Origin: Desulfobacterales bacterium
GTDB lineage: Bacteria; Desulfobacterota; Desulfobacteria; Desulfobacterales; JALSRD01
Direction: 5' to 3'
Assembly: GCA_026984935.1 (NCBI GenBank)
Contig: JALSRD010000077.1
Span: forward strand, 1 to 43,405
DNA: 43,405 nucleotides
The translations under genes and the position numbers were made by a program. Shown one piece after another: positions 20,000 through 23,824 of this stretch; position 1 is the stretch's first letter; each line of letters begins with the position of its first letter. The notes beneath the pieces are model-generated. The model searched no databases. It worked only from the letters and a program-made list of their open reading frames with translations, and was not told the DNA's origin.

Positions 20000-20617
20000 T
20001 CAGTTGGCGCGCCATGCCCGCCAGGCAAAGGTTTTGCCGGCCTGGGTGAAGGTGCCGTTGATCTGGTTCCCAGTGACCGTTCCCCTGTAATGCTGGTTGG
20101 AGCCCGGGCGGGTAAAGCGCACCTCATGGGTCTTTTTATCGTAGCTGGTGCCGGTGATCGGATCGTTGAAAATCTTGCCGCCGCCGGGGGAAAGATGCAG
20201 TTCACCCTTGTTGTTGTTGGCGTCGATCCACCACTTGCCGGTCGGAAAGTCTTTGGCACCGTTCGTGTTGCCTTCTTCTTTCCAGGCTTTCCAGGCGAAG
20301 ATTTTACCGGCCTGGGTGAAGGTGCCGTTGATCTGGTTTCCGGTCACTGTTCCGCTGTACTGCTGGCCGGAACTCTGGCGGAAGAAATGCAGTTCGCCCG
20401 TCTTTTCGTCAAAAGTGACATTGACGATGGGGTCGTTGAAGATTGTACCCCCCTGACGAGCCAGGTAAAGTTCGCCCTTGTTGTTGTTGGCGTCGACCCA
20501 CCACTTGCCGGCGGGAAATTTTTGCTTGGCAAAAGCCTGTGCGGGCAGCATCAGGCTGCCGACCAAAATCAAGGCTCCAAAGAAGGCCCAATGGGTGTTG
20601 GTAAAAATCTTTTTCAT
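20000..20617 (-). CDS. Secreted protein with two 90-residue tandem repeats
   Basis: This encodes 205 residues. A signal peptide ends near AQAFA (residue 30). The mature protein consists of two near-copies of one beta-rich domain, starting at Phe34 and Phe124 with an exact period of 90 residues. Both copies contain GKWW(V/I)DANNNKGEL and an identical GTVTGNQINGTFTQAGK, and end with FAW(K/R)AW. The strand-turn pattern suggests a small barrel or lipocalin-like fold; this is inference. GGGAGG before the ATG and a good promoter upstream support real expression. I do not recognise a named family. Confidence 0.75.
   Translation of the reverse strand: MKKIFTNTHWAFFGALILVGSLMLPAQAFAKQKFPAGKWWVDANNNKGELYLARQGGTIFNDPIVNVTFDEKTGELHFFRQSSGQQYSGTVTGNQINGTFTQAGKIFAWKAWKEEGNTNGAKDFPTGKWWIDANNNKGELHLSPGGGKIFNDPITGTSYDKKTHEVRFTRPGSNQHYRGTVTGNQINGTFTQAGKTFAWRAWRAN
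20003..20518 (-). repeat. Two in-frame 270-bp tandem repeats inside the secreted protein gene
   Basis: Unit 1 (20249-20518) and unit 2 (20003-20248) share long identical DNA stretches exactly 270 bp apart. Examples are the segment at 20037-20068 against 20307-20338, and the segment near 20202-20240 against 20472-20510. Identity at silent positions points to a fairly recent duplication or to gene conversion between the units. Confidence 0.8.
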
Positions 20618-21038: not shown

Positions 21039-21845
21039 CTAAGATTTGAGCTCAGAAGTCAGGGTTAGAAAATCTTTGAGTTTCCCGGCGAATATTCTCT
21101 CGTACCGAATCGTAACCACAAAGCGTTTCAGGCCAAAAATAGCCGATGCAGCACCCATCACGACAAGAGTACCGTCGAGTATGGTCCATGGGCCAACACC
21201 GAAATAGCGCATCAGTCCGGTTCCAAGCGCGATAAAAGCTAGGCCTGTACGGATGAAAGCTAGTTCAGTCCTACCCTTGGCGAGTACGGAGCGGTAGCTG
21301 GATAGTCCGGTGCGCGTGTCGGCCATGCTCGTGCGGCTCTCTGAAAATTTAGTACGCTTTTTTGCCAATTGGGTACGGCCTGCAGCCAAAGTTGTACGGT
21401 TCTTGGATAGATTAGTTCTCAAACTTGCCAGTCTAGTGCGTTTTGAGGAAAGGTCAGTCCTTGTTTCTGCCCAGTCGCTGCGTTTTTTGGAAAGTATCGT
21501 TCGGTTCTTTGCATATCGACTTCTCAATTCGGAGAGAGAGGTGCGCCGCTCGGCCATTTCAGTACTGCGAGATTGGAATTCGGTCTGCTTGCGCACGAGT
21601 GTTGTTTGGTCTTTGGCCAGGTCGGTCCGGATCTTGGCATCCTCGGTTTGCACCTGTGCCAGGGATGTACGCTCTTCAGCCAAATCAGATCGAATTTTCG
21701 AATTCAGGGTGCGGGATTCGGCCATCTCATTTCTTTTTTCGGCAAGGTTGATAAGATTCTGGGTGAGCTTGTTTTCTTCCTCGGCCAGTGCCACAAGAAT
21801 ATGGCTCACATTCTCGATTTGCTCATCAGCTCTGTTTTTTCCCAT
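21039..21845 (-). CDS. Heptad-repeat coiled-coil protein with DUF202-like membrane domain
   Basis: This encodes 268 residues. Residues 31-205 are 25 consecutive seven-residue units with no insertion or gap. The usual unit is Arg-Thr-x-Leu-Ala-x-x: 20 of 25 begin with Arg, and Thr/Ser and Leu/Met follow at fixed places. The last two units, RTELAFI and RTGLAFI, run straight into a membrane span (ALGTGLMRYFG) and a second span (TLVVMGAASAIFGL). This is the layout of the DUF202/YidH family, whose normal pre-membrane motif is also of the form ERTFLAWIRT. The protein therefore looks like a DUF202 unit whose entry helix has been amplified into a rod of roughly 25 nm if fully helical. GGAGG precedes the ATG. 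Function unknown. Confidence 0.85.
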   Translation of the reverse strand: MGKNRADEQIENVSHILVALAEEENKLTQNLINLAEKRNEMAESRTLNSKIRSDLAEERTSLAQVQTEDAKIRTDLAKDQTTLVRKQTEFQSRSTEMAERRTSLSELRSRYAKNRTILSKKRSDWAETRTDLSSKRTRLASLRTNLSKNRTTLAAGRTQLAKKRTKFSESRTSMADTRTGLSSYRSVLAKGRTELAFIRTGLAFIALGTGLMRYFGVGPWTILDGTLVVMGAASAIFGLKRFVVTIRYERIFAGKLKDFLTLTSELKS

Positions 21846-22678: not shown

Positions 22679-23824
22679 TCAGGCCCCAGCCGCCGAGGCG
22701 GCGCACTCGTTTTTGCCCAGGTCCATGACGTCCTGCTCCGCTTCGTCGACTTCCAGCAGCCCGGCGTTGATTTCACGGATGCGGGCATATTCCTCCGGCT
22801 GGGGACGCATGTTTTTCTCGATAAATGCAAAAAAGGCGGCTTCGTCGCGGACAGCGTAGATTTCGGCGTTGTTCTCGATGACTTTGCGAAGCGGTGCCGC
22901 AAACACCAGGTTTTCGTCGGCTTCACGCCAGTCCATGTAGTGGCCGGGCAGTATGATGAGTCCGGGGTCCCATTTGAGAATCTTGTCGGTCATGGTTTTA
23001 AAGAGCATGGTCGACCAGGCCTTGGCCATGCCGCCCAAGTCGGGCCGGCCGATGGACAGGATAAAGACCGCATCGCCGGAGATGAGGTAGCGTCCGTCGA
23101 TGAGGTAGCTGGTGCTGCCGGGAGTATGGCCCGGGGTGTGAATGGCGCGCACCTCGGGGCCTTTGTCACGGAAGGTAAAAATATCGCCGTCGGCAACGGC
23201 CGTGTAAGGGAAGCGGGCGCCTGCGAAGTCGGGTTGCGGAGCCATAATCTCAGCGCCTACCTCACGCCGCAGGCGATCGCTGCCTGAGATGTAGTCGGCC
23301 TGGCGATGGGTCTCGAAGGTGCGCGTAATCGCACAGCCGCGGCTATCGGTGAACTGCCGGTAGGCGGATGTGTTTTTGGCCGGATCGAAAACGAACATTT
23401 CTCCGCCGCAGGCCAGCGCGTAGCTCAGCGACGCCTTGCCCGGGCGGCGGAACTGGTAAAGATCGTAAGTTTCGTGGCCGGCCACCTGGACCGGTGCCAG
23501 CAGGTTGCCCCAGGTCCGGATGCCGCCTTCAAGATAAGAGACGTCTTCGTATCCATGTTTTAGCAGGATTTCGGCGACATAGCGTGCGGAGCCCTCCTTG
23601 GCGCATACGATGCGGATCTTTTTGCCCCGCGGGACCCTGGCGACACTCTCGGTTTCAAATTCCATGAATTCGAAATAGGCCACATTGAGCATGTCGAGGG
23701 CGAAGGGCCCTTCCACCTTGAAGCGCTCAAATTCCTCGTCGTTGCGTACATCGAGCAGCAGGAAATCCTCCCGGGTCGTCAAGGCGCTGAAAAGCTCATC
23801 TGCGCGGTAAGATGGAATTTGCAT
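22679..23824 (-). CDS. Rhodanese-metallo-beta-lactamase fusion protein
   Basis: This encodes 381 residues. An N-terminal rhodanese domain (about 1-110) has Cys74 in the active loop VCAKEGSA. A metallo-beta-lactamase domain of the persulfide dioxygenase/glyoxalase II type follows (about 120-320). The usual HxHxDH motif is altered: the sequence reads THRQADY (His173, Gln175, Asp177, Tyr178), so two metal ligands are replaced. Later ligands look intact (HTPGHTPGS, SGDAVF, PGHYMDW). A persulfide or other sulfur-transfer role is suggested by the domains, but dioxygenase chemistry with this site is doubtful. It lies downstream of hcp on the same strand. Confidence 0.85.
   Translation of the reverse strand: MQIPSYRADELFSALTTREDFLLLDVRNDEEFERFKVEGPFALDMLNVAYFEFMEFETESVARVPRGKKIRIVCAKEGSARYVAEILLKHGYEDVSYLEGGIRTWGNLLAPVQVAGHETYDLYQFRRPGKASLSYALACGGEMFVFDPAKNTSAYRQFTDSRGCAITRTFETHRQADYISGSDRLRREVGAEIMAPQPDFAGARFPYTAVADGDIFTFRDKGPEVRAIHTPGHTPGSTSYLIDGRYLISGDAVFILSIGRPDLGGMAKAWSTMLFKTMTDKILKWDPGLIILPGHYMDWREADENLVFAAPLRKVIENNAEIYAVRDEAAFFAFIEKNMRPQPEEYARIREINAGLLEVDEAEQDVMDLGKNECAASAAGA

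Follow-up and report, generated by a model that had tools for sequence, protein, structure and literature searches.

A DUF202 membrane protein carrying a 25-heptad arginine/threonine rod: a candidate oligomeric stalk in a Desulfobacterales bacterium

Proteins of the DUF202 family (PF02656), of which E. coli YidH is a member, share a membrane domain whose first span is preceded by an R-T-x-L-A lead-in. As a whole word, DUF202 occurs in no title or abstract of the open-licence literature searched; the words prefixed with it in PMC10434189 and PMC6393860 are longer names only (DUF2023, DUF2024, DUF2027). A prior report of a DUF202 heptad rod was likewise not found in that literature, preprints and most subscription journals lying outside its scope.

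The closest described system is the yeast VTC complex (PDB 8i6v, 7ytj, 9umg). According to PMC9911596, Vtc1, Vtc3 and Vtc4 assemble 3:1:1 into a pentamer that acts together with a polymerase; every subunit contributes three membrane helices, and the five TM1 helices form a channel. The basic residues lining the channel wall include K24 and R31, with R31 at the narrowest ring, where the radius is 1.5 Å. The same study describes channel-residue mutants that lose the vacuolar polyphosphate store and a Vtc1 K24A/R31A mutant in which VTC synthesis activity is raised in vitro.

The window analysed here is a 43,405-nucleotide stretch of DNA from a Desulfobacterales bacterium (contig JALSRD010000077.1, assembly GCA_026984935.1). 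Its minus strand encodes at 21039-21845, stop codon included, a DUF202 protein of 268 amino acids with an ATG start; the plus-strand frame over the same positions contains stops. The G+C content of the gene is 49.8% against 58.3% for the whole window, and is lower in 2.3% of 852 stretches of equal length. Residues 1-30 (21756-21845) form an N-terminal cap that keeps the heptad phase of the rod, as seen in alignment A3 and the register table, and its pattern L..L..E.N.LT is common to most of the rod relatives aligned. Residues 31-205 hold 25 heptads of the form R-T-x-L-A-x-x with a net charge of +19, and are part of a single predicted helix. The preliminary description had located them correctly at 21231-21755; the strand, which it did not give, is minus. 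The DUF202 domain follows at residues 185-247 (21105-21293) and takes in the final three heptads and two membrane helices. Judged by eye, the first span lies at approximately residues 200-216 (21198-21248), in hydrophobic sequence at the end of the first helix of the AlphaFold2 model, and the second at approximately residues 221-245 (21111-21185), within the second helix (all on the minus strand).

The heptad register is unbroken over all 25 units, as it should be over the full length of a parallel coiled coil. The earlier characterization of the heptads as perfect holds for the register and fails for the residue content, because strict RTxLAxx occurs in only 7/25. Position 1 is R in 20 of the 25 heptads, position 2 is T or S, position 4 a large hydrophobic residue and position 5 A or S in 23 each, and the relaxed motif [RK][TSN]x[LMFWYIV][AS] fits 19. 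Unit 1 (residue 31, LINLAEK) has neither R nor T at these positions. Over the 25 units the net charge is -6 at position 3 and +1 at position 6. The periodicity is far above chance: residue identity is 0.33-0.36 at lags of 7, 14, 21, 28 and 35 and 0.03-0.10 at the remaining lags from 2 to 35, and the period-7 information is 280 bits against 76 ± 8 bits in 5000 shuffles (top shuffle 110.6; z about 24). At the DNA level no tandem repeat was found in the window, adjacent 21-mers are 43% identical on average and six codons are in use for the Arg of the rod. Thus the repeat in the window protein is either ancient or maintained by selection acting on the amino-acid sequence.

The preliminary description called the protein DUF202-like, and PF02656 confirms the membership with a score of 34.4 bits over residues 185-247, above the Pfam gathering cut-off of 23.4. 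The last units of the rod do contain the DUF202 pre-membrane motif, as had been suggested for the last two; the Pfam match begins at residue 185, so that three units (185, 192 and 199) lie inside it. The R-T-x-L-A lead-in is continuous with the first membrane helix. PF02656 is found in 16/16 rows of alignment A3, which consists of the window protein, 11 rod relatives and 4 of the 10 rod-receiver relatives described below, with the truncated L052 excluded. One more DUF202 match exists in the window genome (G000), at G000:C100, where a short protein has 4 units; G001, a genome of the same genus, yielded only a short DUF202 protein. DUF202 is present in 4/14 control genomes and in 29/148 genomes of a phylum sample. 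Matches to P0001, a count that takes in receiver-type, tandem-type and short DUF202 relatives, occur in 3/58 genomes and in at least 24/389 of a class sample, the window genome being counted in both. The class and phylum counts are lower bounds, since both are samples and in the class sample no genome had more than six candidates scored.

A fragment of yeast Vtc1 matches PF02656 at 57.9 bits; by its sequence, Vtc1 is clearly a DUF202 protein. When a 14-row DUF202 profile was compared with PDB sequences at E up to 10, only four Vtc1 sequences were returned, at E 0.05-0.08; taken alone, the match to the A1 profile (E 0.05) is weak. The alignment, free of gaps around the motif, places Vtc1 FFANERTFLSW on llAkeRTelAf, which aligns R31 with the heptad Arg, R192 in the window protein. 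K24 of Vtc1, seven residues upstream and outside the aligned stretch, would by extension fall on R185. The Arg stripe of the rod may thus continue a position that faces the pore in VTC. The window protein and Vtc1 share a DUF202-type membrane domain and differ in the number of helices: a VTC subunit has three membrane helices, whereas the AlphaFold2 model of the window protein has helices 5-215 and 221-267 only, a reading made on the model and not by a transmembrane program.

The AlphaFold2 monomer, predicted from 16 sequences, consists of these two helices with an overall pLDDT of 85. The ten-residue mean pLDDT is 88-96 over residues 81-200 and 50-82 over residues 1-70. Because helix 5-215 is unbroken, the rod and the first membrane span are one helix in the model, which bears out the rod shape expected from the sequence. 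Foldseek with the rod model gave no significant match (best E 0.24); Vtc1 chains stood at ranks 3, 6, 9 and 48 with E 0.35-1.5, superposing poorly with an rmsd near 17 Å. No Vtc1 chain was among the 50 matches listed by a second structure aligner, and a PDB sequence search with the single window protein gave only three chance-level matches.

A five-row alignment led to 30 loci: 10 rod (L049-L058), 10 rod-receiver (L060-L068, L070), 8 tandem-type (L069, L072-L078) and two unclassified (L059, L071). A scan of genome contigs with the single window protein gave 90 pattern matches and zero relatives. Viral contigs were considered as a source of rods, and none of their 16 pattern matches was confirmed. 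Because many of the loci come from metagenome-assembled genomes, an unexpected taxon such as Zixiibacteriota (L049) could be an effect of binning.

The survey of heptad number proposed in the preliminary description yielded 16 loci of rod-only architecture from 15 genomes with 11-32 heptads. Among these L052 ends at a contig end, and L054 of Desulforhopalus vacuolatus is a shorter homologue with 181 amino acids and 11 units. L108, the same protein as L057, is uncounted, and L114 is a second rod of that genome (G512). A slightly different counting rule gives 11-31 units in ten rod loci (L053: 28 vs 32). Units were counted by stepping back by seven from the membrane motif, so that any slip would shorten a count and not appear as a slip; the rule behind the 11-32 range tolerates single poor units and gives 24 for the window protein. 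A separate unit count covered 32 loci, 29 from the phylum sample together with L001, L059 and L071. They include 22 short DUF202 proteins with 2-4 units on a lenient count, in contrast to the 25 of the window protein, two rods (L100 and L103, with 22 and 28 units) and two tandem-type loci (L102, L104); L096, L101, L105 and L106 had no anchor in the unit count, and no usable result came from L059 or L071.

The heptads lead into the pre-membrane motif without a change of phase in the rod homologues read. Neither of the two observations that the preliminary description named as refuting it was made. Four loci, picked for their look-alike protein units, were run for DNA repeats, and all contain whole-heptad duplications. 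The tandem arrays have periods of 21, 42, 63 and 84 nt in L113 and L057 and of 21, 42 and 63 nt in L109; the 42-nt units of L057 are 93% alike, and L050 has 105-nt (five-heptad) units that are 89% alike. The congeners G469 and G501 have 21 (L109) and 28 (L113) units, and in these two, the cleanest rods, the unit RTELANK occurs 5 times each. The sequences suggest that rods grow by whole heptads. With the variable unit number and the duplications in relatives, the idea that the rod originated by amplification of the DUF202 lead-in heptad is supported by comparison and goes beyond resemblance.

The rod also occurs with a C-terminal receiver domain, at the ten rod-receiver loci (L060-L068, L070). 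These proteins have the heptad rod and membrane pair of the window protein and differ from it in having 12-14 heptads and the receiver, which Pfam identified in four distinct proteins, all those scanned (L039 = L061, L060, L063, L070), and which was recognised by eye in the others. No published name for them was found. A PPDK_N/PEP-utilizer protein adjoins the rod-receiver gene in 5/5 loci examined (L039-L043), as assigned by Pfam on L039, to which the other four are 50-70% identical. This neighbour is about 855 amino acids long, and its last 300 residues are without a Pfam match in the one scanned.

A third arrangement consists of adjacent genes with 3 and 2 DUF202 units. Nine distinct pairs were found, one locus each (L044, L045, L047, L069, L072, L073, L075, L076, L077), the domains being counted with the profile of A1 as full-length units only; some of the proteins have extra partial matches overlapping the lead-in heptads. 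L074 repeats L073, L078 repeats L047 on the same contig, and further tandem-type loci are cut by the locus end. In the two-unit protein the first unit has degenerated and scores 26-64 bits, compared with at least 90 for the second. MshEN was identified by Pfam in both proteins scanned, one each of the three-unit and two-unit type; the first gene of L076 has an open frame without the MshEN part. In a fold search with the L069 model, 10/11 PDB matches at E ≤ 0.001 were c-di-GMP-bound GSPIIB or MshE domains; the significant matches of the tandem-type model fall on the MshEN part only, with nothing on the ring. A histidine kinase gene lies beside the four loci checked, L044-L047 (Pfam on L044). 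The paired proteins share the lead-in and membrane pair with the window protein and differ in their tandem domains, in MshEN and in having about 5-6 heptad units each, as read in the three-unit proteins. Three plus two units make five, which fits the VTC subunit number. The receiver fusion together with the N-terminal MshEN suggests from domain content that both protein ends are cytosolic.

We favour, with a probability of about 0.5, the reading that the window protein forms a cytosolic, parallel oligomeric stalk, probably pentameric, on a DUF202 membrane ring. Heptad after heptad would have been added to the cytosolic lead-in of DUF202, giving one unbroken helix some 210 residues long, or about 30 nm with a rise of 1.5 Å per residue. 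Several chains, five most likely by analogy with VTC, would be anchored side by side via two membrane helices each, and in the cytosol their long helices would coil around one another as a parallel, left-handed stalk. On a helical wheel at 3.5 residues per turn, positions 4, 1, 5 and 2 are adjacent, with R1 and A5 central. The conserved face L4-R1-A5-T2 would direct R1 and A5 toward the bundle axis, with L4 and T2 packing on neighbouring helices, and the Arg rings of the stalk would prolong the Arg/Lys ring that lines the VTC membrane pore. The length of the stalk would change in whole heptads only. Its probable role would be that of a length-tunable, anion-binding stalk or scaffold on the membrane ring.

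The cytosolic side, the coiled coil, the pentamer, the inward Arg and the function are all inferred, the oligomer from geometry and from homology with the pentameric VTC complex. A straight helix drifts by about 20 degrees per heptad, or about 500 over 25, and a strict stripe therefore implies a supercoil with partners. Such a supercoil would be a parallel stalk, and a five-fold one should its membrane part resemble VTC. Since the predicted helix is continuous, the register strict and position 1 pore-facing in VTC, position 1 should face the axis throughout. Relatives carry receiver or MshEN (c-di-GMP-type) domains, so by their sequences the ring and stalk are likely a signalling-controlled platform or gate. 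Against the stalk stand the single large hydrophobic residue per heptad, which makes a weak classical core, the counter-ions that stacked rings of five Arg would need, and the pTM of the AlphaFold2 monomer, 0.38. The poor superposition of the Vtc1 chains, the weak profile match to Vtc1, the raised in vitro activity of Vtc1 K24A/R31A, the negative searches of the genome for polyphosphate enzymes given below and the failure to see a widely conserved neighbour gene also count against it.

In a bolder and unlikely form of the same idea, the protein would be a natural alpha-helical nanotube of five chains, in which the pore Arg ring is repeated 20-30 times over up to about 30 nm. It would act as an Arg-lined anion conduit or store joined to the membrane pore, with its length set by the heptads and with control of the receiver or c-di-GMP type in relatives. 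A related proposal, that a pentameric Arg-lined tube leads polyphosphate, or some other linear polyanion, toward a membrane pore of the VTC type, draws on the alignment of the heptad Arg with the channel-lining R31 of Vtc1, on the 20 Arg at position 1 and on the net charge of +19, and yet we hold it to be quite improbable. VTC works with a polymerase, whereas the VTC polymerase domain PF09359 has 0 matches in the window genome (99.45% complete) and is matched in 3/14 control genomes. Searches for PPK1 and PPK2, each of which finds matches in control genomes, were likewise negative in the window genome. Each is present in 1/13 rod genomes, both in Desulforhopalus vacuolatus (L054; G469 and G501 excluded), and PPK1 has a class background of 21/192, so that the rod genomes are near this rate and show no excess. 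These results disfavour polyphosphate transport by the window protein, and the VTC pore is itself already just 1.5 Å in radius at its Arg ring (PMC9911596).

A humbler function would be that of a passive spacer, a two- or three-stranded coiled-coil stalk that holds the N-terminal cap or a partner off the membrane while an inherited Arg/Thr stripe serves packing. This is possible though doubtful. Length varies freely among relatives, coiled-coil families match weakly in Pfam, below the cut-off, and a widely conserved neighbour gene was not seen, all of which suits a spacer; it would, however, have no need of fixed R and T, which occupy their positions in 86% and 85% of 353 rod heptads from 16 loci (somewhat high figures, because the counting rule favours such units). 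Large hydrophobic residues are moreover too few for it, and DUF202 in VTC is pentameric (PMC9911596). The charge and the Arg/Thr stripe could instead mark a helix that binds phospholipid or DNA/RNA lengthwise. We regard such a surface-lying or nucleic-acid-binding helix as very unlikely, given that a strict seven-residue stripe kept up through 25 units would spiral around any helix that is straight, that the Arg face also holds conserved L, A and T, and that positions 3 and 6 have the net charges given above. Most improbable is an isolated single alpha-helix of the charged ER/K type, without partners: E3-K7 pairs are present in the cleanest rods, in the RTELANK units of L109 and L113, but the conserved T2, L4 and A5 are needless in helices of this kind.

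These proteins show the lead-in heptad of a family still named a "domain of unknown function" to be a repeatable unit of structure, whose number evolves through whole-heptad duplication. Some bacteria encode DUF202 as 3+2 units, in agreement with the five subunits of the VTC ring. The rods may thus allow tests of the chain number per ring and of the Arg ring as a bacterial pore; should the stalk prove to be a tube lined with Arg, it would count as an unusual helical nanotube of natural origin.

The flanks available, which are short for some loci, show no gene that is widely conserved next to the rod gene. In the window, a gene for a rhodanese domain fused to a metallo-beta-lactamase-fold domain (22679-23824, minus) lies upstream of the rod gene, about 830 bp off. 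At 20000-20617, also on the minus strand, is a gene whose small product has a hydrophobic N terminus resembling a signal sequence and two copies of a W/G/N-rich module that are 67% identical over 79 residues and have no Pfam match above cut-off. A cytidylate-kinase-like (PF13189) gene adjoins the rod gene in 4/16 rod loci (L037, L038, L057 and L058), as found by tblastn in all four and by Pfam on L038 and L057. In L038 the cytidylate-kinase-like and rod frames overlap as called.
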